Below the pieces are notes generated by a model. That model was not told the DNA's origin, did not search any database, and was given only the letters and a program-made list of their open reading frames with translations. A stretch of DNA of 64,000 nt from Planctomycetota bacterium (lineage in GTDB: Bacteria > Planctomycetota > Planctomycetia > Pirellulales > PNKZ01): NCBI GenBank assembly GCA_018242585.1, contig JAFEBQ010000012.1, forward strand, positions 1 to 64,000, written 5' to 3'. This document shows, one piece after another, positions 15,035 to 44,064 of this stretch; the stretch's first letter is position 1; each line of letters starts with the position of its first letter. Made by a program: the position numbers and the translations under genes.

Positions 15035-15865
15035 TCATGCGGCGCGACGGACTGGCTCGACGCCGAGTTGGCCCGCTTGTTCCTGGCGTCGCAGCGAATG
15101 TCGCAGCGCAAAGATGTAAGCAAAGGTGCGGCGCACCAGACGCATCTTGCCGCGGAGCGTGCCGCCCCCCTTGGCCTCGCCATGCTTGCGCAGGCCAAAA
15201 TCGACCGGCAACTCGAGCACTGGCCGCTGGTGTTGCGCCGCCTGGTACAGCGCGTACAAGTCCAGCGAGAAGTCATCGGGCGGCGCTGGCAGCAACTCGA
15301 GGAACGAGCGATGAAACAGCTTGGGCTGGGCATTGATATCATGCAGCGGAGTCTGCAAGGCCAGCGAAGCCACGACCCCCATTCCCCAGGTGAAGAACCG
15401 GTCGACCACGCCTCGCCCGCGTCGCCGACCGCGGATCAACGTGCCCTTCGGGTCGGGCGCCTGGCCAAGCTGCTGAAAGCCCAGCAATACATCAAGCGGA
15501 TCCGTTTGTAAATCGGCATGCGTCCAGGCCAGGTACGCGCCGCGACAATCGCGGAGACCGGAGACGATGCCGTAGCCATAGCCTTGATTGACGGGTACAT
15601 GAACAGCGCGGGCGAAGGCGTTTTCCGGTTTGGCCAGTTCGCTGGCCAGCGCTTCCGCCGAGCGGTCAGTCGAACCGTTGTTGACCAGTACGACTTCGAC
15701 GTCACCTCGCCCGGCGAGGACCGCGCGAAACCGTTCCAGAATCAAAGGGATGTTGCCAGATTCGTTGTAACATGGCACAACGATCGAAAGCTGGCAGGCC
15801 GTCGCTGACTGACGCTGATAGGCGCTGCCAGATGCTGAATCGGGGAGTGCGGCAGATGAGCTCAT
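15035..15865 (-). CDS. GT2 glycosyltransferase, dolichyl-phosphate mannose synthase-like
   Basis: This 276-residue protein has a GT-A domain starting with LSIVVPCYNESGNIP, followed by VLVNNGSTDRS, the dolichol-phosphate-mannose-synthase style segment NQGYGYGIVSGL, and the metal-binding WTHADLQTDP. It lacks the C-terminal membrane helices of longer DPM-like enzymes. It probably moves a sugar from a nucleotide donor to a polyprenyl phosphate or glycan acceptor. The ATG at 15865 is used because the frame upstream runs over the divergent 2H phosphoesterase gene. The two start codons are only 41 bases apart, so they share a compact promoter region. It is upstream of gmd in the same direction, with a 211-base gap. 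Confidence 0.89.
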   Translation of the reverse strand: MSSSAALPDSASGSAYQRQSATACQLSIVVPCYNESGNIPLILERFRAVLAGRGDVEVVLVNNGSTDRSAEALASELAKPENAFARAVHVPVNQGYGYGIVSGLRDCRGAYLAWTHADLQTDPLDVLLGFQQLGQAPDPKGTLIRGRRRGRGVVDRFFTWGMGVVASLALQTPLHDINAQPKLFHRSFLELLPAPPDDFSLDLYALYQAAQHQRPVLELPVDFGLRKHGEAKGGGTLRGKMRLVRRTFAYIFALRHSLRRQEQAGQLGVEPVRRAA

Positions 15866-15906
15866 CGGCAAGTTTCCATTTCTTCTTCTGATTGGCGCCG
15901 GCAACG

Positions 15907-16554
15907 ATGAATCGTCAGGCTGATTCGGTTCCCCTGTTCTTCTCGCTTGAGCCGGACCCGGCATTGACGACGTTGATCCTCGACTACAAGCAGCGCACTC
16001 GTCGCGTCGCGGGGGACCAGCTTTACCTTTCCGATCCACCCCACTTGACGGTTTACCTGGCCGCGTTTGCCAGTTCTGCAAAACTGGACGAGGCCTGGGA
16101 CCGAATCGTCGGGCGACTCGTCGCGCCGACGTTCGAGATCACCGGCTGGCACTTGTTCGAACAGGACGCGCTGACGGGGAGGCAAACGCTCGTGTGCGAT
16201 CTGTGCGCCGCAGACCGTGACATTTTTCGCGCTCTGCAGCGAACGGTCGTGGACGCGGCCGCGCCGTGGCGTGACCGCCGTGCGACCGAGCAACGATATG
16301 CTGGGCGGTTGGATCGCTTGCAGCATGTCGAACGCGAACAGGTAGAGCGAGTCGGGTTTCCCTTCGTCGGCGACGGCTGGCATCCGCATTTTTCGATTGC
16401 CTCGATCGCCACCGGCGACTGGCCGCGGGTCAGAGCCGAGTTGTGGAACGACCCGCCACGGGGAAGATTCACCTGTCCACGCTTGCAGTTGTACGAGCTT
16501 CATGACGGGCATCCGAGGCTGGTACGCTCAAGCAGCCTGGCGACGGGCGTTTGA
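15907..16554 (+). CDS. 2H phosphoesterase (2'-5' RNA ligase family) protein
   Basis: This 215-residue protein carries the two H-x-[ST]-x motifs that define the 2H phosphoesterase superfamily: H46-L-T48-V and H161-F-S163-I. Members hydrolyse or ligate 2'-5' or cyclic phosphodiester bonds. The ATG at 15907 is chosen over a TTG 15 bases upstream. Its last 27 bases overlap the 3' end of the GDPD-like gene on the other strand. Its presence among polysaccharide genes is unexpected; whether it acts on RNA or on a cyclic sugar phosphate cannot be told from sequence. Confidence 0.85.
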   Translation: MNRQADSVPLFFSLEPDPALTTLILDYKQRTRRVAGDQLYLSDPPHLTVYLAAFASSAKLDEAWDRIVGRLVAPTFEITGWHLFEQDALTGRQTLVCDLCAADRDIFRALQRTVVDAAAPWRDRRATEQRYAGRLDRLQHVEREQVERVGFPFVGDGWHPHFSIASIATGDWPRVRAELWNDPPRGRFTCPRLQLYELHDGHPRLVRSSSLATGV

Positions 16555-17139
16555 GCCGAGCGCTGCTTGCCACAAATCGGGGCGCTTGGTGCAAACGGCG
16601 TCGACCGAAAAGGGCGCCAATTGCAGCGCGTACTGCGAAATGGTGGTGACCGGCCGTCCTTGCAACTCGGGCGAAACCGCACAAAACCGAAAGTGTCGCT
16701 TTAGCCGAGCATAGCTGTCCGGTTCGAAGGGCATGGTCGTAAAGCAATCGACCCAGACCCAGTCCACTTTGCCCGCCATGGCCAGGCAGCTTTCCACCGG
16801 CTCGTATTCCGAGAACCGCATGGCGATGCGCGATTCGCCCTGGGAACTGAGCAGGCGAATCATGGGAAACGAGCTATCGAGAAAGAAGTAGTTTTCAATG
16901 CCGTGGGCTTGTAGCAACTCGAGCGCGCGGTGCTCGATGCGCTCGCTCTTGATGTTCAGAATCATCAGTCCGTGGCGATAGTGCTTCAAGTAGTCCGCGA
17001 AGCGCTCGCCATCGGTGAAGGGGTCGTGCTGCAGAATGAGTTCGCCACCCTGATCGCGCAAGTCGAGCTCAACGCCGTGCTCGACGGGAACGTCGGCCAA
17101 CTGTCGGATATTGTTAATCCGGTGATGAATGAACAGCAT
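16528..17139 (-). CDS. Glycerophosphodiester phosphodiesterase-like protein
   Basis: This 203-residue protein resembles the TIM-barrel GDPD/PI-PLC-like superfamily. The expected active-site pattern is present near the N-terminus: HHR at residues 5-7, Glu24 and Asp26 in VELDLR, and His38 in QHDPF. These positions match the catalytic His, metal-binding Glu/Asp and second His of GDPD enzymes. There is no signal peptide, so it should be cytosolic. It is shorter than typical GDPDs (about 240-300 residues). It ends inside the 3' end of the convergent 2H phosphoesterase gene, so two predicted phosphodiesterases sit back to back. The substrate could be a glycerol-phosphate or sugar-phosphate diester. 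Confidence 0.82.
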   Translation of the reverse strand: MLFIHHRINNIRQLADVPVEHGVELDLRDQGGELILQHDPFTDGERFADYLKHYRHGLMILNIKSERIEHRALELLQAHGIENYFFLDSSFPMIRLLSSQGESRIAMRFSEYEPVESCLAMAGKVDWVWVDCFTTMPFEPDSYARLKRHFRFCAVSPELQGRPVTTISQYALQLAPFSVDAVCTKRPDLWQAALGSNARRQAA

Positions 17140-17208
17140 CGCGGTTCGCTATCGAGGAATACCGACTTGCCGGCCTGGTAGAATAGCGCGGACGCAAACT
17201 GAGCTCGC

Positions 17209-17943
17209 TCAAGCAGCGAGGGCTTGCCGTTGTTCGGCTGTTTTTGCGACGATGAACGCTTGGCCGCCATAGCCGTAGTCGAGCAGACGACGGAAAACGA
17301 GTTCGGGATGGGACTTTTGAAAGTTGGCGAATGCTCCGGCCACGCCGCGCTCGTTCGAACCTGCATAGGCAAAAAAGTCGTCCAGCACGATGACGCTGCC
17401 AGGTTGCAACACTGGGGCCATGAACTCGAGCGCCACGCGCGCCGGTTCACCCAGGTCACAGTCGATCAGCGCCACGGCGATCTTTTGAATGCCGAGTTCA
17501 TCGGGTGTTTTCTTGCCAATCGTGTCTTCAATATAGCCCGGCAAGACGTCCCATTCGGCGCGGCGACCGAATTGACCCGAGAGACGGCTCAATGTTTTCT
17601 GGTAACTGCTCTTAAATTCACCCGGCCGAAAGAACGGATGCTGGTCCGCGTCGGTCGAATAACGAAAGCCCTCGAAAGAATCGAAGCCCCAGAATTTGCG
17701 CGGCTGCGCCTCTTGGCCCTTGGTCGATTCATGGCATTCAAGCGCCGCGATGAACGACGAACCCTCGTACATGCCGAATTCCAAGTAATCGCCCGCGACC
17801 GCTTCGCAGTTGGCGAGATAGAACGCCTTTTTCAAAGCGCGGACTTTTTCGACATTGTGCTCGATCGGCACGCTCAGCCTGGCGATTCGCTTGATGACGA
17901 ACGATTGTAACCATTGACTGTTCTGGGCGATGAAGCCAAGCAT
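17209..17943 (-). CDS. TylF/MycF-type sugar O-methyltransferase
   Basis: This 244-residue class I SAM methyltransferase resembles the macrocin O-methyltransferase (TylF) family. Seen in order are the SAM-binding loop LEFGMYEGSS (residues 54-63), the family segment FWGFDSFEGF, and the metal-binding acidic region LIDCDLGEPA near residue 160 with LQPGSVIVLDDF about 25 residues later. TylF enzymes methylate sugar hydroxyls using Mg2+. Here it probably methylates a deoxysugar of the surface glycan. The ATG at 17943 is used because upstream codons in frame show no similarity. It lies 69 bases upstream of the GDPD-like gene in the same direction. Confidence 0.9.
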   Translation of the reverse strand: MLGFIAQNSQWLQSFVIKRIARLSVPIEHNVEKVRALKKAFYLANCEAVAGDYLEFGMYEGSSFIAALECHESTKGQEAQPRKFWGFDSFEGFRYSTDADQHPFFRPGEFKSSYQKTLSRLSGQFGRRAEWDVLPGYIEDTIGKKTPDELGIQKIAVALIDCDLGEPARVALEFMAPVLQPGSVIVLDDFFAYAGSNERGVAGAFANFQKSHPELVFRRLLDYGYGGQAFIVAKTAEQRQALAA

Positions 17944-18162
17944 GCGTTGGTCTCTAGTCGGGCGTTTTAAACAGTAATGCCGAGGGCAAAACCTATCGCG
18001 GCATACTAGCTGCATCAAGATCAATCGTTTTGGTTGACTGTCTACAGCGTCTTAGCCGCGGGTGATAGCGGCAACGGCTTGCTGCTAGCGGTGACCGCAT
18101 CGATTAAGTTCCGCTGGATTTCGTCTTCTCGAACGCCGTATGACGGAGATAAAACTTGCTCC

Positions 18163-19797
18163 ATGACGTCATCATCGGACCAGTTATCGCCACCCAGCCG
18201 GCTATCAGGCATCGTTCTTGCTGCCGGCTTCGGAGTTGCTTTCGCAGGACTGTTGGCGGCCAAATTGACTTGGGGAGTTTTTGACTACGGTTGCCCCACC
18301 TATTGTGGAAACATGATTTGGCAAATCGCCACTAAGGGATTTCCCGCCGAATTCGCGGGAACTCCGGGAGTGGTTGCCAACTACCACCAGGGCACGTTCT
18401 GGCTTTCGGCGCAACTAAGCAAGTGGATCGAAATCGAGCCCGCGGCTGCCATCCGCTGGGTGTTGTTCCTGTTCAGCGTCGCTAACTTCACGATTCTGTC
18501 GGTGGTGGGCGTCCGCACGCGCGGCCCGACATTAACCGTGATGATCATGGCCACGGTGTTTTTTTCCGCGAGTCCCCCGACTTGTAACACCTGGCCATTG
18601 AACACCGCTTCCGTCGGTTGGTTTGAATACATCAGCCTGTTCGAATACCTTGCCGGCACGTCTACTCCAATCGCGTTCCTGCTGATGACCTGCCTGGTGA
18701 TCGGATCGAGCCATGGTACGACGCCAGCCAGGTTTTTGGCGATCTGCCTACCCCCGCTGCTGCTTTTGCCGATCATCAATCCTACGGCCTTCATGGTAAG
18801 TTTTCTGGCCGTTGGTACCCTGTTGGCGGAAGGCGCTAGCGACGGGGGGAAAAGAAAGCTGCCATCGCCTGCTTGGATACTTCCGGCAGCCGCGTGGTTG
18901 TTCACCTATTTTTTGCCAAGGTGCTATCCCTCGGCGATGCTACAGGGGGACAACTACGAACCGGTCAAACTAGGCTTGCGCTTGTTCGCGACGGACGGCT
19001 GGGTGACGATCGGCGAGTACTTGGCGCTGCACCCCATGGCAAACCATTTCACACTGATCTTCGTGCTGATGCAGATCGTTTCGTTGCGATGGAAGACTCC
19101 GTTTGGATCGCGGCTATTCCTGCTGTGCTATCTATTTCCGCTGGTGGTCTCGTTCGATAACGTATTTCGCTGGGACAATACTCACAAATTTGTGCTGCTG
19201 TCGTCCATGGCTTCACTTTACGTCTGGTTGATTCCAGGGAATTGGTTTGCTTTTCTTTCGTCTTCATGGCGGCGCTGGGGATATGCCGCGGCCGCAATCT
19301 CGTTGCTCTGCTCGATACCGTCCCAGTTCAACCTCTTTGCCACGCGAATGACCTACGCAACGCCGTCGTTCACCCCGGCGCCATGTCCCGACGATGCGTT
19401 GTACCGATATCTGCGGGACGCCTATCGCCAATCAGGGCGCCGATGCATGCTCTGGCCTTATGGCGATCAGCAATACTGTGGTCGCCTGGCAATGGTCGTC
19501 TCCAATACGAATGTGTCGTGCGCCGGCGCCTACTTTTCGTTCTTTCTGCTCGCGCCTGAACTAGAAGCACAGACGTTGGTCGAGCGAGACTGGTTTGAGC
19601 ATGACGTGCTATCGCTGCAAAGCCGCTACCCTTCGCACATTCACGTTTGCATCGCCCCACATGGCAGTTGGCGGGAACTTGAATCGCGCATGGCTGACAA
19701 GAACCTGAGGCTCCGAGTGACCGCGAGTTTCGAGCACTACCGGTTAGGTGAATTGAGCCCTTGGGACGCGCCAGGCGAAGCCGAACCGTCGAAGTGA
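18163..19797 (+). CDS. Polytopic membrane protein in polysaccharide region, unrecognised family
   Basis: This 544-residue protein has roughly ten hydrophobic segments between residues about 15 and 410, followed by a soluble C-terminal domain of about 130 residues. The overall plan (many helices with a periplasmic tail) resembles GT-C glycosyltransferases or O-antigen ligase/polymerase-like proteins, but no diagnostic motif such as a DxD near the first loop was found. The ATG at 18163 is preferred because it just precedes the first helix. The separate protein at 27906-29621 has a similar plan and may be a distant paralogue. Function is unknown; GT-C or polymerase activity is only an inference. 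Confidence 0.78.
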   Translation: MTSSSDQLSPPSRLSGIVLAAGFGVAFAGLLAAKLTWGVFDYGCPTYCGNMIWQIATKGFPAEFAGTPGVVANYHQGTFWLSAQLSKWIEIEPAAAIRWVLFLFSVANFTILSVVGVRTRGPTLTVMIMATVFFSASPPTCNTWPLNTASVGWFEYISLFEYLAGTSTPIAFLLMTCLVIGSSHGTTPARFLAICLPPLLLLPIINPTAFMVSFLAVGTLLAEGASDGGKRKLPSPAWILPAAAWLFTYFLPRCYPSAMLQGDNYEPVKLGLRLFATDGWVTIGEYLALHPMANHFTLIFVLMQIVSLRWKTPFGSRLFLLCYLFPLVVSFDNVFRWDNTHKFVLLSSMASLYVWLIPGNWFAFLSSSWRRWGYAAAAISLLCSIPSQFNLFATRMTYATPSFTPAPCPDDALYRYLRDAYRQSGRRCMLWPYGDQQYCGRLAMVVSNTNVSCAGAYFSFFLLAPELEAQTLVERDWFEHDVLSLQSRYPSHIHVCIAPHGSWRELESRMADKNLRLRVTASFEHYRLGELSPWDAPGEAEPSK

Positions 19798-20020: not shown

Positions 20021-20701
20021 GTGTCTTCCAATCTGCCATTTCAAGCGCTCGATCAATTACGTGAAGACGTTTGCCATGCCAACCGCATGCTGCCCGAGCT
20101 TGAGTTGGTCGTCATGCACTCAGGCAACGCTAGCGGTTACGACCCGATCTCGGGCCGATTGGTCATCAAGCCTTCGGGCATGGACTACGACAAGATCACG
20201 CCCGATTGCCTGGTCGAGGTCGAAGTGGCAAGCGGACGGATCGTGCGCGGCGATTTGAAGCCCAGCGTCGATCTGCCGCACCATCTCTATCTGTATCGCA
20301 ACATGCCCGATGTGCGTTCGGTGATTCACACCCACAGCAACCATGCGACGGCGTTCGCCGCCTGCCAGCGACCGATTCCGCTGGTGCTAACCGCTATTGC
20401 CGACGAGTTTGGCGGTGAAATCCCTTGCACTCCGTATGTCAGTAACGAAGGGGATCAAATTGGCGAGGCAATCGTCAAATACGCCAATGGTCGGCCAGCC
20501 GTGTTGCTGGGCAATCATGGCGTATTTGCCTGGGGCGGTTCCGTGGCCGCCGCTTTGAAATGCGCTGCCATGGTCGAAGACGTAGCGCGCACCGTCTTGT
20601 TGGCAATGCAGTTGGGCAGTCTGGTGACAATCCCGGCGCACGAGGCCTCAAAGTGGTTCGACCGTTACCAGCATCGTTACGGCCAGCATCGCGCGGCCTG
20701 A
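20021..20701 (+). CDS. Class II aldolase/adducin family protein, AraD-like
   Basis: This 226-residue protein starts at a GTG at 20021, with a strong AGGGAGGGG site six bases upstream; a TTG at 20015 lies inside that site and is unlikely. The class II aldolase signatures are present: SGNASGYD (phosphate binding, residues 34-41), IKPSGMDY (49-56), the zinc pair H103-x-H105 in VIHTHS, and a third likely zinc ligand His166 in LLGNHGVFAWG. It is closest in pattern to L-ribulose-5-phosphate 4-epimerase and fuculose-phosphate aldolase. It is the first gene of a four-gene module with an RPE-like fusion, a nucleotidyltransferase-phosphatase fusion and a sugar nucleotidyltransferase. Confidence 0.9.
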   Translation: MSSNLPFQALDQLREDVCHANRMLPELELVVMHSGNASGYDPISGRLVIKPSGMDYDKITPDCLVEVEVASGRIVRGDLKPSVDLPHHLYLYRNMPDVRSVIHTHSNHATAFAACQRPIPLVLTAIADEFGGEIPCTPYVSNEGDQIGEAIVKYANGRPAVLLGNHGVFAWGGSVAAALKCAAMVEDVARTVLLAMQLGSLVTIPAHEASKWFDRYQHRYGQHRAA

Positions 20702-20763
20702 GCCAGAGGATCGACCACGAGACGAACTGCAAAGCTCTGAAGTCGATCGAACCCTCGTTCGTC

Positions 20764-21894
20764 ATGAATGCGAAGTCCGGTATGAAACTGCCCAGCACCA
20801 TCGAACGCGCCAGGCGACGCTGCACGCGACTGATCGTGTACAGCCATCTGTCGTACCTGGCTTACCGCTATCGCTACCTCACCGTCTTTACGCTGATTGG
20901 TGTCTCGTCGTTGTTGATGGAGATTGCGCTGGCACGGTTCGTGATGCCGGCCAGTTGGCCCTGGCTGGCGCAAGCGCTGGTGGCGTTTGGACTGGGGCTG
21001 ATGACCAGCTTCCTGTTGAATGCCACATTCAATTTTCGCGTGCCGAAGCGGGACTTCGTGCGCACCTTTCAGCGGTTCGCGCTCGTTTCGGTGATTTCCT
21101 TCGCGTTGAACATGCTGGCGGTCGCCTGCTTTTATAACTGGATTGGCCCGGCCTACGGCGAAGCGCGGCTGGTTTCGGCGGCGATTCTGTTCCTGGTCGC
21201 GTACTCGCTGCATCGGCGTTTCACGTTCGACATGACGCGAAACTTCGGAATCGCCCTATACGCTTCACGGGAAGAAAGATTGTACGAAGCCTTCTTGCGG
21301 ATCGGCCGCAAGTGCGACCATGTCCACATGGATCTCGTCGACGAAAGCTTCAATCCTCGCTGTGCGCCGGTCGAGGTCGGCCGCGTGCGGTTGGCCCGCA
21401 AGTTGTGGAATCGGGCGCCAATTTGTCTGCACATTATGTCGCGTCGACCGCGGCATTGGATGGAACAGACCTGGGACGACGTCGATTGGTATCTGTTTCA
21501 CACGAATATCGACGATGAGCCGCTTAAGCTGGTTGTCGAGTGTCGTATGCGTGGCAAGAAGGTGGGGGTCGTTTGGCATCGAAATGACGCCGTCGAGACG
21601 CTGTTCCCATTGCTGCCGCATGTCGACTTCGTGATGGTATTGGGCATTGCCGAACCGGGCCGCTCGGGCCAACAGTTGCTCGACGAGGCGCTGGCCGTGA
21701 CCGACATGCTGCATCGCATTCGAGGCAACTATCGATACGAGGTGATGGTCGACGGTGGTGTGAACCCACAGACCATTCGTCGCTTGCCCGCCAAATACGT
21801 GGTGGCCGCCAGCTCGGTGCTGCGCGCCAACAACCCGATCCTCTCACTGCACCGGCTAAAAACGGAATCGCGCTATGAGCGAATTGCCGCTTAA
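20764..21894 (+). CDS. Fusion of GtrA-like membrane domain and ribulose-phosphate 3-epimerase-like domain
   Basis: This 376-residue protein has two unrelated halves. Residues about 38-155 hold four membrane helices in GtrA-like layout (with NATFNFRV after helix 2 and RRFTFD after helix 4). Residues about 175-376 match a ribulose-phosphate 3-epimerase barrel: H188-M-D190, His223 in CLHIM, EPGRSGQQ (297-304) and V329-D330-GGVN. These are the positions of the RPE metal ligands and catalytic acids, so the barrel may be active. GtrA proteins are thought to help flip lipid-linked sugars. Tethering an epimerase to such a domain suggests epimerisation at the membrane. Its last 20 bases overlap the next gene. 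Confidence 0.86.
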   Translation: MNAKSGMKLPSTIERARRRCTRLIVYSHLSYLAYRYRYLTVFTLIGVSSLLMEIALARFVMPASWPWLAQALVAFGLGLMTSFLLNATFNFRVPKRDFVRTFQRFALVSVISFALNMLAVACFYNWIGPAYGEARLVSAAILFLVAYSLHRRFTFDMTRNFGIALYASREERLYEAFLRIGRKCDHVHMDLVDESFNPRCAPVEVGRVRLARKLWNRAPICLHIMSRRPRHWMEQTWDDVDWYLFHTNIDDEPLKLVVECRMRGKKVGVVWHRNDAVETLFPLLPHVDFVMVLGIAEPGRSGQQLLDEALAVTDMLHRIRGNYRYEVMVDGGVNPQTIRRLPAKYVVAASSVLRANNPILSLHRLKTESRYERIAA

Positions 21895-23440
21895 ACAACG
21901 CATCCAACAAGCCCTGTGGAGCGTGGTCGAAGGCCGGCCGGAGATCTTGTCAGCCACGCTGACGGGCAGCTTCCAGGAAGCCGATACGCTGGACGCGGTC
22001 AGCGATATCGATTTCGTCGTCGTGCTCGACTGTCTGGACGAATCGCGATACCGACAACTGCTCGCCGAATTGGAAACGGCGTTGACGCCCGTGTTAAGCC
22101 GCGCTGGGTTCGGGCTGTACATCAATCCGACGCTCGGGCCCCTCAAGTTCAACGATCCGCGGACGGCCGTGCTGCATTTGATGCTCTATTCGCGCGCTGG
22201 GCACGTCGAGCATGTGGTATCCAGCCCGTTTACCTGTCTCGATTGGCAACGCTCCAAGCTGTTTTGCCAACGGAGCCTGGCCCAGGTTTACCCGGTCTTT
22301 GGTCTGCAGCCCCATCATTTTGTTTCGTCGCGAAGGAGCGTGACCGATTACCTGCGCGATTACGACGCGCGGGTCGTTTCGTATCGTGAACTGGTGTTCT
22401 CCGTGGACGGCCCTCGCGAAGAGAAGCGAACCAAGTTGATGGACGTCCGCGATCGGTACGAGTTCAGCTACCACATTGTGCGGTTCTTGATGGAGAACCT
22501 GGTCAAGTTGGTAACGCGCCGCAACCTGGCCCTTCGTGGCGACGCCCTGTTGGACGCTTACTTTGCCGTCTTCCCGGAGAATCGCTCGGCGATTGCCGGC
22601 CTGTATCGCGAACTGGCGCGCAAGAAGCAGCGTGCCGACTTCACTGACTCGTTGCCCAACCTCGACGTCCAGTTGCGCGACTTCATCAGCAGGTTTGAAG
22701 CTCAATTCCAGGACACGTTCGTCCAGCAGGCAACGCGGCACGTCGTATTCCGACATGCCGAGACTGCGGCAAATCGCGGCAAGTACGGCAACCGGGTATT
22801 CCTGGGACGGTCGAATCCTCCGATCGAGAATGTACCGGCCGAGCGGCTGGAGCGGTTGGCGTCGACAATCGGCGGCCACTCGATCGAGCGCGTCTTTTGC
22901 TCGCCGCTGTTGCGCTGTCTGCAGTCACTTCAGCAAGTGACTGCTCGGTGCTCGTTGCCTACTCTCACGTTCGATGATCGATTGCTGGAGATTGACTACG
23001 GCGCCGTGGAAGGATTGACCATTGACGACGCTCGCAGGCATTACCCCGAGCTGTTTCACGCCTGGGACCGGCACGAGGACCCCTGTTTTCCCGACGGAGA
23101 ATCGACGCAAGCTGTTGAACGGCGCGTGGTGAAGTTTGTCAACGAATGTTGGGGCGGCGCCGGGAATACCTTGACTTGTACCCACAATGTCGTGCTTCGC
23201 GCGCTGGTTGGGCGCACGCTACAAGTTCCCCCGGAACTTTGGCACAAAATCCAGATTCCGCATCTGGCGCCGATTGTGTTTGTGCAGACCCGTGAACACG
23301 GCTTATTCCTCGATTTGTCCGAAGATGTCGAGCGGGAAGTGTTTCGCGAGTTTGCCGAGCGAGCCCCCGAGAACACCACGGCACCGACGCTTGCCGCCGC
23401 CGGCGCTACAGGAATCGAGTTGGCCCCGTCTTTGCGATAA
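21875..23440 (+). CDS. Fusion of MNT-type nucleotidyltransferase and histidine phosphatase
   Basis: This 521-residue cytosolic protein joins two catalytic domains. The N-terminal part has the minimal nucleotidyltransferase signature G31-S32 followed by D44-I-D46-FVVV. The C-terminal part, from about residue 288, is a histidine phosphatase: R293-H294-AETAAN (usually RHGE), SPLLRCLQ at 343-350, an acid at Glu372 in LLEIDYGAVEG, PDGES at 407-411, and the second His437. All core phosphatase residues are kept. About 100 residues of helical linker sit between the domains. The start overlaps the preceding GtrA-RPE gene by 20 bases, so translation is probably coupled. It may transfer a nucleotide or phosphate and remove one in the same pathway. 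Confidence 0.85.
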   Translation: MSELPLKQRIQQALWSVVEGRPEILSATLTGSFQEADTLDAVSDIDFVVVLDCLDESRYRQLLAELETALTPVLSRAGFGLYINPTLGPLKFNDPRTAVLHLMLYSRAGHVEHVVSSPFTCLDWQRSKLFCQRSLAQVYPVFGLQPHHFVSSRRSVTDYLRDYDARVVSYRELVFSVDGPREEKRTKLMDVRDRYEFSYHIVRFLMENLVKLVTRRNLALRGDALLDAYFAVFPENRSAIAGLYRELARKKQRADFTDSLPNLDVQLRDFISRFEAQFQDTFVQQATRHVVFRHAETAANRGKYGNRVFLGRSNPPIENVPAERLERLASTIGGHSIERVFCSPLLRCLQSLQQVTARCSLPTLTFDDRLLEIDYGAVEGLTIDDARRHYPELFHAWDRHEDPCFPDGESTQAVERRVVKFVNECWGGAGNTLTCTHNVVLRALVGRTLQVPPELWHKIQIPHLAPIVFVQTREHGLFLDLSEDVEREVFREFAERAPENTTAPTLAAAGATGIELAPSLR

Positions 23441-23507
23441 CGCGGTGTCGGCCACTGAGATGGCCGGCGTTTGATTTGGCTGCCGAGCTCCAACTGGGTT
23501 GAAATCA

Positions 23508-24356
23508 ATGTATCATCGGATTCAGCCCAAGATGACGATCTCGGACGGCTTGCAGATTGTGATTCCGATGGCGGGACTTGGCCAGCGTTTTCGCGACGCT
23601 GGCTTTACGGTTCCCAAGCCGTTGATACCGGTGGGCGGGACGCCGATGGTCATTCGGGCCGCGCAAGCATTGCCGACGGCTGAGCGATACATCTTCATTG
23701 TTCATCCGGATCATCAGCAGCAATACGACCTCGCCTCGACACTGCGCTGTCATTGCCCGCGCGCCGAGATTGTCGTCGCCCCCGGCCTCACTCAGGGACA
23801 AGCGTGTACGGTCGCCCTGGCTGCCCCCAAGCTGAACCTGGAGCACGAGGTTCTGGTCGCGGCTTGCGATGCGGCGCATCTGTATGACCGATCGCAGTTC
23901 GATCGGCTCCGCGAGGAGCCCGACATTGACGCGATCATTTGGACCTACCGTGGCGATCCGCGCGTGCTGACTCGGCCTCAGGCCTATGGCTGGGTGCGCA
24001 CCCGACCGGGGAGCATCGATGTCCAAGAAGTGAGTTGCAAGCGGCCCATTTCCAGCGAGCCACTGAACGATCTGGTAATCAGCGGTACCTTCTGGTTTCG
24101 CACGGCTGGATTGATGTGCGATGGCATCAACGAGTTGGTGGCTAGCGAGCGGCAAATCAACGGTGAGTTTTACCTGGACGTCGTTCCCAACCTGTTGCTC
24201 AGCCAAGGGCGCCGGGTGGTCGCTTTTGAAGTCGACCAGCATATCGGCTGGGGGACGCCTGAGGATTACTGGCGGTACGACAAGCTAGCTCAATATGTGA
24301 CCGCTGGCCTGCAGGCAGCGATTCCGCCAACAGCCCCTAGGCTGGCCTGCGAATAG
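23508..24356 (+). CDS. Sugar-phosphate nucleotidyltransferase-like protein
   Basis: This 282-residue protein belongs to the NTP_transferase (nucleotide-diphospho-sugar pyrophosphorylase) family. The binding loop IPMAGLGQRF and the lysine-bearing VPKPLIPVGG are near the N-terminus, with ACDAAHLY as the metal-binding site and GTFWFRTA and NGEFYLDVVP further on. It should couple NTP to a sugar or polyol phosphate; neither can be named. Start choice is weak: an ATG at 23532 gives a shorter protein beginning just before the fold. It is the last gene of the 20021-24356 module, 67 bases after the fusion gene, and is followed by a terminator-like hairpin. Confidence 0.87.
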   Translation: MYHRIQPKMTISDGLQIVIPMAGLGQRFRDAGFTVPKPLIPVGGTPMVIRAAQALPTAERYIFIVHPDHQQQYDLASTLRCHCPRAEIVVAPGLTQGQACTVALAAPKLNLEHEVLVAACDAAHLYDRSQFDRLREEPDIDAIIWTYRGDPRVLTRPQAYGWVRTRPGSIDVQEVSCKRPISSEPLNDLVISGTFWFRTAGLMCDGINELVASERQINGEFYLDVVPNLLLSQGRRVVAFEVDQHIGWGTPEDYWRYDKLAQYVTAGLQAAIPPTAPRLACE

Positions 24357-24370
24357 CTCGGCACGCCGGA

Positions 24371-24408
24371 AGTCGCATCACCTGGCCAGGTCCGCCGCGA
24401 CTTTTTTG
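24371..24408 (+). terminator. Hairpin plus T-tract after the four-gene module
   Basis: AGTCGC at 24371-24376 pairs with GCGACT at 24397-24402, with an inner ACCT-GGCC-AGGT hairpin between them, followed by a run of six T. It starts 15 bases after the nucleotidyltransferase stop codon, so it probably ends that transcript and separates it from rfbF. Confidence 0.65.
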
Positions 24409-24559: not shown

Positions 24560-25432
24560 ATGAAAGTCGTCATTCTAGCCGGTGGACTCGGCACGCGATT
24601 GGCGGAGGAATCGTCGTTGCGACCGAAGCCGATGGTGGAAATCGGCGGCAAGCCCATGCTGTGGCACATCATGAATATCTACTCGGCCCATGGGTATCGA
24701 GAGTTTCTGATTGCCTGCGGCTACAAGGGCGAGGTGATCAAGGAATACTTCACCAACTTTCGCAGCCGGCACAACGACGCATTCATCGAGTTGCGGACTG
24801 GCGTCAGTACGATTGTCAGGCCTTGCTGTCCCGACTGGAATGTCGGACTGATTGACACGGGCCTGAAAACAATGACCGGCGGTCGTCTGCGTCGGCTGCG
24901 CGACTATCTGGCCGACGGGCCATTCATGGTCACTTATGGCGATGGCGTGGCCGATGTTGACGTTCACGCTGTCATCGAGTTTCATCGCCGGCACGGCAAG
25001 CTAGCGACTCTGACGGCGGTCCACCCGCCAGCGCGCTTCGGCGCCTTGCAGATCGAAGCCGATCAGGTTGCGGGCTTCACCGAGAAGCCGCAAACTGGCG
25101 AAGGCTGGATCAACGGCGGCTTCATGGTGTTCGAGCCAAAAGTGCTCGACTACATCGACTCGGACGAAATGATCCTCGAGCGGGAGCCGCTCGAACGTCT
25201 GTCAGCCGACAATCAATTGATGGCCTATAAGCATCAGGGCTTTTGGCAGCCCATGGATACCCTGCGCGAGAAGCAACTTCTCGAGTCCATGTGGGAGTCT
25301 GGCAAAGCGCCCTGGAAGGTGTGGGAGGATAACCTTGACGATTTCGACATTTTATCGACACAAACGGGTGCTGATCACCGGGCATACAGGATTCAAGGGG
25401 GGGTGGCTGGCGGCGTGGCTGAAGCGGCTTGA
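24560..25432 (+). CDS. rfbF: Glucose-1-phosphate cytidylyltransferase
   Basis: This 290-residue enzyme makes CDP-glucose from CTP and glucose-1-phosphate, the entry to CDP-3,6-dideoxyhexoses. The start is MKVVILAGGLGTRLAEES, with RPKPMVEIGGKPMLW, the metal site VTYGDGVADV, FTEKPQTGEGWINGGFMV and GFWQPMDTLREK all present. Typical family members end near residue 257 just after APWKVW; here the frame continues for about 34 extra residues with no family similarity and overlaps rfbG by 98 bases. That tail looks like a lost stop codon. The gene follows a GGGGAAGGAG ribosome site. Confidence 0.96.
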   Translation: MKVVILAGGLGTRLAEESSLRPKPMVEIGGKPMLWHIMNIYSAHGYREFLIACGYKGEVIKEYFTNFRSRHNDAFIELRTGVSTIVRPCCPDWNVGLIDTGLKTMTGGRLRRLRDYLADGPFMVTYGDGVADVDVHAVIEFHRRHGKLATLTAVHPPARFGALQIEADQVAGFTEKPQTGEGWINGGFMVFEPKVLDYIDSDEMILEREPLERLSADNQLMAYKHQGFWQPMDTLREKQLLESMWESGKAPWKVWEDNLDDFDILSTQTGADHRAYRIQGGVAGGVAEAA

Positions 25433-26435
25433 TGCCCAGGTCAGCGGTTACGGACTGCCTCCCCAGCCGATCGAAACCAATCTTTTCGGCGCTGCGCAGT
25501 TGGCCGACGGAATGGCCTCCGAGTTGGGAGACATCTGCGACCGCGACCAACTCGACCGATACTTTGCCGCCCAGCGCCCCGAAGTCGTGTTTCACCTGGC
25601 GGCTCAACCGCTGGTGCGGCGCTCGTATCAACAGCCCGTCGAAACATTCCAGACCAACGTGCTGGGCACGGTGAATGTTTTGGAAGCGGTGCGGCGCACG
25701 CCGAGCGTACGATGCGTGGTCGTCGTCACCAGCGACAAGTGCTACGAAAACCGCGAGTGGCACTGGGGTTATCGCGAGCACGATCCACTCGGCGGCCACG
25801 ATCCCTATAGCGCCAGCAAAGGCTGTGCGGAAATCGTTGCCTCGTCCTACCGCCGCTCGTATTTCTCGGTCGACCAGCGAGTGGCGCTCGCATCGGCGCG
25901 CGCGGGCAATGTGATTGGCGGTGGCGATTGGTCCGAGGATCGGCTGGTGCCCGACATTGTGCGGTCGATCGTCCGCAACGTGCCGATCGAAATCCGCAAT
26001 CCCCAAGCCATCCGCCCCTGGCAGCATGTGCTTGAGTCACTGCACGGCTACCTGCGGCTTGGCCAGAAGCTGTGCGAGGATGGTCATGCGTTTGCCGAGG
26101 CCTGGAACTTCGGGCCCCGCGACGACGACGCACGGTCGGTGCATGCGGTCGCCCAACGATTAGTTGAAGTCTGGGGGCAAGGGCAACTCCAACTCCAGAC
26201 GGCGGGGCAAGGGGCTCACGAAGCCAGGCTCTTGACACTCGACAGCAGCAAGGCGCGAAATCGCTTGAATTGGCGGCCGCTATTGCGGCTGGACGAAGCT
26301 TTGCAGCTCACCGCCGAGTGGTATCGCGGTTATTACGCTTGCCCGGCCGATGCGGCCGCGTTACTCGACCGCCAAATTGACTTCATGATGTGCCGGATCG
26401 AAGAGCCACATCAAATTGCCCGGAGAGCCGCCTGA
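25335..26435 (+). CDS. rfbG: CDP-glucose 4,6-dehydratase
   Basis: This 366-residue extended SDR converts CDP-glucose to CDP-4-keto-6-deoxyglucose. The cofactor motif is [11 protein letters not shown] at residues 15-25; the active site shows [11 protein letters not shown] and the Tyr-x3-Lys pair in DPYSASKG near residue 157. [13 protein letters not shown] is a family hallmark. The start is a TTG at 25335, supported by GGGAGG six bases upstream and by the fact that codon 10 onward already matches the family. The gene begins inside rfbF and ends with TGATG shared with rfbH, so all three genes are tightly coupled. Confidence 0.96.
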
Positions 26436-27778
26436 TGAAATCCGAAGCCGATCGCTTGCGCCAGCAGATCCTCGAGCTGGTGGGAAGCTATCATCGAGCC
26501 AACTGGCCGCAGCGAGAATTCCACGCTGGCGATCACGCGATTCCCGTCACGGGCAAGGTATTCGACGCGGATGACTTGCAGGCCCTGGTCGATTCGTCGC
26601 TCGATTTCTGGCTGACGACGGGGCGGTATGCGCGTCAATTCGAGCGAGAGTTTGCCAAGTTTTGCGAGGTGCGTTACGCACTGCTGACCAACTCGGGTTC
26701 GAGCGCGAATCTGTTGGCGATCTCGGCGCTGACCTCTCCGCAACTTGGCGATCGCCGCCTGCAGCCAGGCGATGAAGTGATTACCGTGGCCACGGGCTTT
26801 CCGACGACCGTGAATCCCATCATCCAGAACCAGTTGGTTCCGGTCTTCCTGGACGTTGAAATTCCGTCCTACAACATCGACGTGACGCGGTTGGAAGAAG
26901 CCATTACCGACCGGACCAAGGCAATTATGATCGCCCACACGCTGGGCAATCCGTTTAACCTGGACGCTGTCACCACCATCGCCAAGAAACATCAGCTTTG
27001 GCTGGTCGAGGACATGTGCGACGCGGTGGGCTCGCGATACCACGACCGCTCGGTGGGAAGTTTTGGTCACCTGGCCACCGTCAGTTTCTATCCAGCACAC
27101 CATTTGACCATGGGTGAGGGTGGCGCTGTGCTGACCAGCAGCCCCATCCTCAAGAAGTTGGTCGAGTCGTTTCGCGACTGGGGACGCGATTGCTGGTGTG
27201 ATCCCGGGCAAGACAACACTTGCGGCAAGCGCTTTGATCAGCAGCTTGGCGAGCTCCCCCAAGGCTACGACCACAAATATACCTACAGCCATATCGGCTA
27301 TAACTTGAAACTTACCGACATGCAGGCCGCAATTGGCGTAAGCCAGTTGCGAAAGTTGCCCGAGTTCATTCGTCAACGTCGCGACAACTTCGACTACTTA
27401 CATGCTGCGCTCGCTGGGCTCGAGCAGCACTTAATTCTTCCCGAGGCCACGCCGAATTCGGCGCCATCATGGTTCGGGTTCCCGATCACGCTGCGAGAAT
27501 CATCGCCGCTGTCGAGAAATGAATTGATTCACGCCTTGGAATCGCAAAAAATCGGCACGCGCCTCTTATTTGGCGGCAACCTCCTGCGCCAGCCGGCTTA
27601 CAGCAATATCGCGCATCGTGTCATTGGCTCGCTTGATAACGCCGACCGCATCATGAATGACACGTTCTGGATCGGCCTTTATCCGGGCCTGAGCCGGGCC
27701 ATGCTCGATCACACCGTGACAACCCTTTACGACGCGCTGGCGGTCAGCAACCACAAGCGCCAAGGCGCGGCGGCTTGA
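26435..27778 (+). CDS. rfbH: CDP-4-keto-6-deoxyglucose 3-dehydrase (E1, RfbH)
   Basis: This 447-residue PMP/iron-sulfur enzyme removes the C3 hydroxyl of CDP-4-keto-6-deoxyglucose. Two marks separate it from ordinary aminotransferases. The PLP lysine is replaced by His in [14 protein letters not shown] (His222/His223). The cluster cysteines are at 195, 253, 255 and 263, exactly the C-x57-C-x-C-x7-C spacing known for E1. Length and the segment [16 protein letters not shown] match RfbH closely. The ATG at 26435 overlaps the rfbG stop. The reaction normally needs an NADH-dependent ferredoxin-type reductase (RfbI/AscD); none is seen in the window. Confidence 0.97.
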
Positions 27779-43029: not shown

Positions 43030-44064
43030 GTGGACGCCACCCGCGCAAACCGGCCGGGTGCGCCGTCGCAGGGATCCACCGGCGCGACCGATTCAACCGC
43101 CGCGGCTTCGGCGGGCCGCCCGTCTCCGGCCGCGCCCACTGGGCCGCTGTGGCAAGCGGTTGTGCGCTACCTGAAGTACCTGCAGGTCGAGCGCAACGCC
43201 TCGCCGTTGACGATCAAGAGCTACCGCGAGGATCTGACGGGACTCGTGCAATACCTGGCCCACGCCCACGGCGGTCGCGCCCCAAAGCCCGAGACGATTG
43301 GCACGCCTGAACTGCGGGCCTACGTCGCCACGCTGCACGACTCGGAACTGGCCAAAAGCACGATCGCCCGCCGGCTGGCGTCGCTGCGCAGCTTCTTTCG
43401 CTTTGGCCAGCGCGATGGCTGGGCCCAAGCGAACCCGGCCCGGCCGCTACGCAACCCGCGGCGCAATCGACCATTGCCGCACTTTCTTTCCACGGCTGAA
43501 GTCGGCCAACTGCTCGAAGCGCCGCGCGGGAGGGGAGCGTTGCCGCTGCGCGATCGGGCGATTCTCGAGACGCTCTACTCGGCCGGATTGCGCGTCAGTG
43601 AGTTGGTCGGGCTGAATGACGCCGACCTGGACCTGGAATCAGGCCTGGTCCGCGTGCGCGGCAAGGGGCGGCGCGAGCGGCTTTCGCCCATCGGTTCCCA
43701 TGCCGCGGCTGCTCTGCGGCGCTGGTTGGCCGAGCGCGATCGACAGCAGCGCCCACCGGCGCGCGGGCCGGCGCAGCGCGGCGGGGCGCCGTTGTTCGTC
43801 AACCGATTCGGCACACGGCTCACCTCGCGCAGTGTCGGCCGCTTGCTGGAAAAGTATCTCCGCGAGACCGGCCTGGACAGCCGGACCAGCCCGCATACCC
43901 TTCGCCACAGCTTCGCCACGCACTTGCTCGATCGCGGGGCCGACATTCGTAGCGTCCAGGAGTTGCTGGGACACAAGAGTCTGCTGACCACGCAGATTTA
44001 CACGCACGTCAGCACGGCCACCCTGCGGGCGGCGTACGAACGGGCCCATCCGCGAGCGCAATAG
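43030..44064 (+). CDS. Tyrosine recombinase, XerC/XerD type
   Basis: This 344-residue site-specific recombinase has a SAM-like N-terminal domain (about 40-140) and the catalytic domain with all six residues in place: Arg188 (AGLRVSEL), Lys212 (GKGRRER), His289 and Arg292 (HTLRHSF), His315 (GHKS) and Tyr324 (TTQIYTHV). It probably resolves chromosome dimers rather than moving an element, because no integrative element or attachment repeat is nearby. A Pro/Ala/Ser-rich tail of about 38 residues precedes the N-terminal domain. The start is a GTG at 43030. Which Xer (C or D) is not certain. Confidence 0.93.
   Translation: MDATRANRPGAPSQGSTGATDSTAAASAGRPSPAAPTGPLWQAVVRYLKYLQVERNASPLTIKSYREDLTGLVQYLAHAHGGRAPKPETIGTPELRAYVATLHDSELAKSTIARRLASLRSFFRFGQRDGWAQANPARPLRNPRRNRPLPHFLSTAEVGQLLEAPRGRGALPLRDRAILETLYSAGLRVSELVGLNDADLDLESGLVRVRGKGRRERLSPIGSHAAAALRRWLAERDRQQRPPARGPAQRGGAPLFVNRFGTRLTSRSVGRLLEKYLRETGLDSRTSPHTLRHSFATHLLDRGADIRSVQELLGHKSLLTTQIYTHVSTATLRAAYERAHPRAQ

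Follow-up and report, generated by a model that had tools for sequence, protein, structure and literature searches.

A conserved set of at least eight genes, predicted to make a ketopentose-derived surface sugar, in Planctomycetota, other bacterial phyla and small archaea

We analyzed the first 64,000 nucleotides of contig JAFEBQ010000012.1 of a Planctomycetota genome (hereafter the window) and found that it most likely contains, in full, a conserved pathway that would make an unusual ketopentose-derived sugar, load it onto a prenyl-phosphate carrier and add it to a surface glycan. Judged by sequence conservation, the module is a set of at least eight genes (eight to nine). The original prediction had placed its limits around the four plus-strand genes at 20021-24356; five more genes at 15035-19797, partly on the other strand, are members or companions of the same set. 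The features are as follows.

15035..15865, minus strand: GT2, a DPMS/GtrB-like soluble glycosyltransferase (PF00535; the ATG start is our choice)
15907..16554, plus strand: 2H phosphoesterase, 2'-5' RNA ligase/LigT-like (PF13563)
16528..17139, minus strand: GDPD-like phosphodiesterase, a short TIM barrel (fold matches of an AlphaFold2 model; no Pfam match)
17209..18024, minus strand: TylF-like O-methyltransferase, an optional companion (PF05711, 37.1 bits)
18034..19797, plus strand: multi-TM membrane protein, putative GT-C-type transferase (hydrophobic segments)
20021..20701, plus strand: class II aldolase family protein (AldII) of the AraD (L-ribulose-5-P 4-epimerase) type (NF005123; best solved relative AraD)
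20764..21894, plus strand: GtrA membrane domain fused to an RPE-like ketose-phosphate 3-epimerase (PF04138, PF00834)
21875..23440, plus strand: NT-HisP, a Polbeta-type nucleotidyltransferase (NT) fused to a histidine phosphatase (HisP) (His_Phos_1, motifs)
23499..24356, plus strand: GT-A-fold NTP transferase of the sugar-phosphate pyrophosphorylase/cytidylyltransferase type (PF12804)
24370..24407, plus strand: hairpin followed by six T, a possible terminator (fold -22.8 kcal/mol)

The four genes of the original prediction stand where it placed them and with the domains it named, as the open reading frame coordinates and the Pfam and curated-model scores agree in showing. The start overlap and short gaps that it described are also there: the end of GtrA-RPE overlaps the start of NT-HisP by 20 nt (21875-21894), and the gaps flanking this pair are about 60 nt or below 100 nt, depending on the choice of start. 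The open reading frame of the NTP transferase opens with TTG at 23499, and its true start may be 23532. Of the terminator claimed after the last gene, the hairpin and its run of six T are present, but the folding energy is unexceptional (z -1.47, not significant; 17 of 200 shuffled sequences are equally stable) and a terminator scan did not list this hairpin, so that a terminator here is plausible only.

The four-gene limits proved too narrow and were dropped, since the association of GT2, 2H and the GDPD-like protein with NT is about as tight as that of the four genes. In other genomes these three families and large membrane proteins accompany the four genes, and their homologues in the window lie upstream. 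The 2H gene is easy to miss because a spurious open reading frame (15862-16512, minus strand) lies opposite; we rejected this frame as a gene, the real gene being 2H on the plus strand. RfbF/G/H (24560-27778) were likewise left out of the module: their scores exceed the curated cut-offs for the known CDP-glucose pathway, and they show no conservation with the module. Other genes in the window encode an ABC-transporter pair of the kind that exports polysaccharides, a GDP-mannose-dehydratase-like enzyme, numerous glycosyltransferases and, in addition to RfbF/G/H, further sugar-nucleotide enzymes. This wealth of export, glycosyltransferase and sugar-nucleotide genes makes a surface-glycan role the natural reading and bears out the setting that had been proposed.

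Conserved synteny had been set beforehand as the test that could refute the original prediction, and the result was strongly in its favor, with the same partners at 39 loci. Searching a class sample of 148 genomes with the NT domain showed it to be rare (nine genomes, including the window's own). The NTP transferase lies 0.63-0.73 kb from NT in all eight other NT-bearing genomes, and translated searches of neighborhoods of up to 20 kb placed the aldolase and the RPE domain beside NT in seven of the eight; in the eighth stretch, which lies near a contig end, translated search found neither. This grouping is far above chance. In a draw of 294 genomes from the phylum, full-length NT and strong GDPD-like matches occurred in the same three genomes only (G000, G016 and G375).

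An NT-HisP profile scanned against 84,980 species genomes yielded 31 loci, which span Planctomycetota, Sumerlaeia, Neomarinimicrobiota, Verrucomicrobia, Bacteroidota, Gemmatimonadota, Pelagibacteraceae (SAR11), other alphaproteobacterial single cells, Actinomarina, and DPANN archaea (Woese-, Pace- and Micrarchaeota). Because the scan relied on conserved peptide patterns, this spread is a lower bound; the same pattern method found no relatives in viral contigs. Adding the window and the eight class genomes and removing one duplicate gave the 39 loci, among which NT and HisP are each present in 38, RPE, 2H and the NTP transferase in 36, GtrA in 35, GDPD in 33, AldII and GT2 in 31, and TylF in five. 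The next commonest neighbor families occur at only 5-10 loci, led by an SDR group at 10.

Many of the component absences fall on short contigs or contig ends. Four loci without a nearby AldII (L063, L065, L074 and L080) have a class II aldolase elsewhere in the genome that is 36-42% identical to the copy in the SAR11 module, and three without a nearby GDPD (L070, L074 and L081) have a GDPD-like gene elsewhere in the same genome, the one in L074 carrying an internal stop codon. Gene order varies between lineages, and the set is kept in genomes of about 0.7-1.3 Mb (about 0.7-1.2 Mb in the archaeal carriers). One carrier, Limnoglobus roseus (L057), is culturable. By these sequence comparisons, the set travels as a unit across many bacterial phyla and tiny archaea, and the pathway has probably spread horizontally.

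The domains are also joined in various fusions: GtrA-RPE at 35 loci, NT-HisP at 37, 2H-NT-HisP and NT-HisP-2H at three each, GtrA-RPE-NT-HisP at two archaeal loci and GtrA-RPE-NT at one. These combinations place the epimerase, nucleotidyl-transfer, phosphatase and cyclic-phosphodiesterase steps on one path. Between components, pairwise identities correlate at 0.67-0.86 for seven of them and more loosely, at 0.48-0.73, for GT2. These values are supporting evidence only, as plain species relatedness also enters into them; the looser GT2 would fit an occasional exchange of the transferase. Catalytic residues are near-invariant across all component families.

The two ketose-phosphate enzymes suggest the type of substrate. 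The aldolase scores 161 bits against Aldolase_II, barely passes NF005123 (251.5 bits against a cut-off of 251) and misses the equivalog TIGR00760 (153 against 389); among solved structures, AraD (1jdi, E 1e-46) is its closest relative. The AraD-type residues D81, H100, H102, D125, H163 and Y217, which we take to be the metal His triad and the equivalents of Asp76, Asp120 and Tyr229 of AraD, are invariant at 31 of 31 loci; the equivalent of AraD His218 is not conserved in the window's aldolase. Of the fused protein, the GtrA part matches PF04138 (54.5 bits over a cut-off of 26.1) and the epimerase part Ribul_P_3_epim PF00834 (69.2 bits), with metal ligands and catalytic Asp (H33, D35, H68 and D175) invariant in 36 of 36. 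The latter misses the equivalog TIGR01163 (66.3 against 212.6 bits) and is classed as RPE-like only. The invariance of both signatures supports a ketose phosphate as the likely substrate, as had been predicted.

Since a separate RPE gene is present in the genome of the window (247.6 bits) and in seven of 10 other carriers, we dropped the idea that the RPE domain does housekeeping work in the pentose-phosphate route, for this genome and for most carriers; the other three, two of them small archaeal genomes and the third a Bacteroidota assembly, showed no housekeeping RPE over the cut-off. Given the separate housekeeping enzyme, the probable substrate of the RPE-like domain is the C4 epimer, with conversion of L-ribulose-5-P to L-xylulose-5-P, or else a carrier-bound form. 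The arabinose and pentose-phosphate enzymes AraD and RPE are related to the module's in family and in conserved active-site residues, and differ in that the module lies in a glycan locus and its RPE domain is membrane-tethered and far below the housekeeping cut-off.

Among the phosphoester enzymes, the phosphatase domain is certain to be a histidine phosphatase of branch 1 (His_Phos_1, 112.6 bits; fold Z 22.9 to 1ebb), with the active site R13, H14, R67, E92 and H157 conserved in 38 of 38. NT is an assignment by motif, because it falls below the Pfam cut-offs (Polbeta/NTP_transf_2 scores of 17.8 against 26.9 bits and 16.9 against 21) and, in the fold search with the NT-HisP model (pLDDT 92), the phosphatase domain filled the result list. 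The motif, G-S...D-x-D, is well kept (G31, D44 and D46 in 38 of 38, S32 in 37 of 38). A sequence search of solved structures found no match for either NT or the GDPD-like protein. The 2H protein scores 45.2 bits against PF13563 (cut-off 27) and carries the motifs H41-x-T43 and H156-x-S158 in the window, both histidines being conserved in 36 of 36.

One could read NT and 2H as making and breaking a cyclic or 2'-5' nucleotide, in signaling or in the processing of RNA ends. The 2H superfamily does include 2'-5' phosphodiesterases, and NT gives weak profile matches to CD-NTases (E 0.14), but ketose-phosphate enzymes, GT2 and GtrA occur at nearly every locus and would be unneeded for signaling, which leaves this reading highly improbable.

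The GDPD-like protein, for which Pfam has no family matching either the window's copy or its homologue at L041, is recognized by its AlphaFold2 model (pLDDT 97). Among solved folds, GDPDs come closest to it (Z 17.6, rmsd 2.4 over 187 residues; Foldseek best match 1zcc, E 1e-5). H6, E24, D26, H38 and K64 are invariant in 33 of 33, and the H, E, D and H among them appear to follow the order of the family. A second cluster, of Gemmataceae type, has GDPD together with homologues of the NTP transferase but lacks NT, RPE, AldII and 2H, so GDPD need not depend on NT.

This second cluster, and the usual action of the GDPD fold on glycerophosphodiesters, would suit a phosphodiester decoration, in which GDPD, 2H and HisP process a glycerol-, choline- or inositol-like phospho-alcohol, the NTP transferase makes a CDP-alcohol, and RPE and AldII make a separate sugar. 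The substrate of GDPD and 2H could indeed be something other than the sugar. We nevertheless regard this decoration as distinctly unlikely, as the GtrA-RPE/NT-HisP and NT-HisP/2H fusions tie the ketose and phosphoester steps to one path and no family for CDP-alcohol transfer is prominent among the conserved neighbors.

2H, GDPD and HisP might alternatively serve in repair, clearing cyclic phosphates left by the breakdown of a labile NDP-furanose, with only RPE, AldII, NT, the NTP transferase and GT2 on the forward path. The chemistry is established, as NDP-furanoses with a free neighboring hydroxyl, such as UDP-apiose, form cyclic phosphates and 2H enzymes open them. Against this, NT is fused to HisP and also to 2H, and the set is retained in genomes as small as those noted above, both of which suggest essential steps; we consider a repair function quite improbable.

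Activation would fall to the NTP transferase (NTP_transf_3 PF12804, 39.8 bits over a cut-off of 27), whose G-x-G-x-R...KP motif and D111 are invariant in 36 of 36 and whose solved relatives are 4evw, GlmU, IspD and inositol-P cytidylyltransferase. The predicted dephosphorylation and nucleotide activation are the likely chemistry.

The IspD- and inositol-P-cytidylyltransferase-like relatives also raise a CDP-ketose or polyol-phosphate route, in which the NTP transferase places CTP on the terminal phosphate of a pentulose-5-phosphate and the phospho-sugar is then transferred. There is a precedent in the pathway from CDP-6-fructose to CDP-6-glucitol (HS5.18-HS5.17 and Mnp1-Mnp2), where HS5.18 of Campylobacter makes CDP-6-fructose directly from the ketose phosphate fructose-6-phosphate (PMC10918830). 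What the module has in common with it is the use of an NTP transferase on a ketose-phosphate path to surface glycans. HS5.18, however, partners a dedicated reductase, whereas no reductase is conserved across the 39 loci (SDR-type proteins are scattered over 10 of the 31 loci, none of them conserved with the module), and the module has NT-HisP, 2H, GDPD, AraD and RPE in addition and implies C5 rather than C6 chemistry. Such a route would leave HisP, NT, 2H, the DPMS-like GT2 and GtrA unexplained, and we judge it improbable. The lack of a conserved reductase also led us to drop the polyol that had been suggested as a product.

On the side of transfer, GT2 (PF00535, 63.7 bits) has orthologues with E<1e-80 in 30 other module loci. 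Its motif H-A-D-L-Q has His-x-Asp in place of D-x-D, invariant in 31 of 31, and we class it as DPMS-like; the motif and the absence of visible C-terminal membrane helices from its sequence indicate that its donor or acceptor may be unusual. The membrane protein at 18034..19797 has 13 hydrophobic segments and no Pfam match, and large multi-TM proteins flank the module at most loci with enough contig; its putative GT-C role is suggested by hydrophobicity only. A close homologue of TylF occurs at four other module loci (L060, L064, L070 and L075). A GtrA domain that occurs with a multi-TM protein and a GT2 of the DPMS/GtrB-like kind recalls O-antigen glucosylation of the GtrA/GtrB/Gtr(C) type, and it is from these three parts only that we infer prenyl-phosphate transfer outside the membrane. 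The module departs from that type in its GT2, in the fusion of GtrA to RPE and in a donor that would come from dedicated ketose and phosphoester enzymes.

Our preferred scheme for the ketopentose-derived sugar has four steps. First, C4 and C3 of a pentulose-5-phosphate would be set by the AraD-type enzyme and by the RPE-like domain tethered to GtrA; AraD with a second 3-epimerase would put the sugar in the L-ribulose/L-xylulose series, D-xylulose being a possible alternative. Second, the histidine phosphatase would strip the 5-phosphate before the pentulofuranose ring closes. A pentulose-5-phosphate cannot close to a furanose, as O5 is blocked, so the phosphate must leave before a pentulofuranosyl donor can form, and HisP fits this task. 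Third, NT would put a nucleotide on the sugar, the GDPD-like enzyme would expel the nucleoside through attack by the neighboring hydroxyl to give a cyclic phosphate, and 2H would open this to an anomeric phosphate. Fourth, the NTP transferase would make the NDP-sugar, GT2 would hand the sugar to prenyl phosphate, GtrA would flip the carrier-bound sugar and the membrane transferase would transfer it outside; TylF may methylate it. In outline, the first, second and fourth steps together are somewhat favored to be right; they are more likely than the third, which is a proposal.

The third step was devised because an NDP-sugar needs an anomeric phosphate and no kinase is conserved at the module loci, so that NT, transphosphorylation of the GDPD type and opening by 2H are put forward as its source. 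That the three proteins jointly build the phosphate through a cyclic intermediate is our own proposal, and the main merit of the scheme is that it uses every conserved part. In its most specific form, they would replace a sugar kinase in bacteria and DPANN archaea alike, taking a nucleotidyl-pentulose through a 1,2-cyclic phosphate to the anomeric (C2) phosphate; we hold this to be unlikely as it stands, and if true it would be the first case known of a pentulofuranose activated by a nucleotide, along with its prenyl-phosphate form.

Heptose-type pathways consist of an isomerase, a kinase, a phosphatase and an NTP transferase. The module shares their logic of setting the sugar, providing an anomeric phosphate, removing the terminal phosphate and activating with a nucleotide, but has NT, GDPD and 2H in place of the kinase. 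This and the CDP-6-fructose pathway (PMC10918830) are the nearest described logic, and neither has the module's parts. We found no description of the gene set, of NDP-pentuloses or of pentulose activation in open-licence texts; together with the synteny at 39 loci, this is consistent with the single conserved and apparently undescribed system that had been proposed. That eight tightly linked proteins, though rare, recur across phyla, and in SAR11 single cells and small archaea as well, suggests a surface sugar in broad use, for which they form a defined enzyme set. Strains known for xylulose glycans include E. coli O95 and C. jejuni RM1221. Of the pentuloses, xylulose is a rare component of the surface glycans and polysaccharides of several bacteria (PMC8707391).

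Immediately past the module, the window carries three genes, each scoring above curated cut-offs:

24560-27778: RfbF, RfbG and RfbH

This complete set belongs to a known pathway, which leads from CDP-glucose to a 3-deoxy-sugar.

A second cluster was found in genomes related within the class:

L048, 6163-8595: second cluster
L049, 8452-13663: second cluster
L050, 9077-11081: second cluster

In each of these three loci, one or two NTP transferase homologues accompany a GDPD-like protein and a HAD phosphatase; two of the loci also have a cupin, and none has NT, RPE, AldII or 2H. The cluster is possibly a sister pathway of the module.

Two archaeal ORFs encode GtrA, RPE, NT and histidine phosphatase together:

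L064, 8921-11419: four-part fusion, 832 aa
L061, 3-2954: four-part fusion, at most 983 aa

The module locus of one Gemmatimonadota genome (L074) is without GT2, GDPD and AldII, and the same genome has a GDPD-like copy:

G433:C14:180136-180711: GDPD-like copy with a single in-frame TAG

The TAG possibly reflects gene decay or a sequencing error.

One gene on the far side of the window's polysaccharide region may point to mobility:

43030-44064: tyrosine recombinase (phage integrase family)

When compared with a viral library, the NT-HisP model (window 21875-23362) gave weak matches to giant-virus histidine-phosphatase proteins (Yasminevirus and others), covering mostly the phosphatase domain.

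In GT2, an invariant His-x-Asp replaces D-x-D in the window copy (15077-15811, minus strand) and 30 orthologues, which for a DPMS-like enzyme would be an unusual site for metal or donor.
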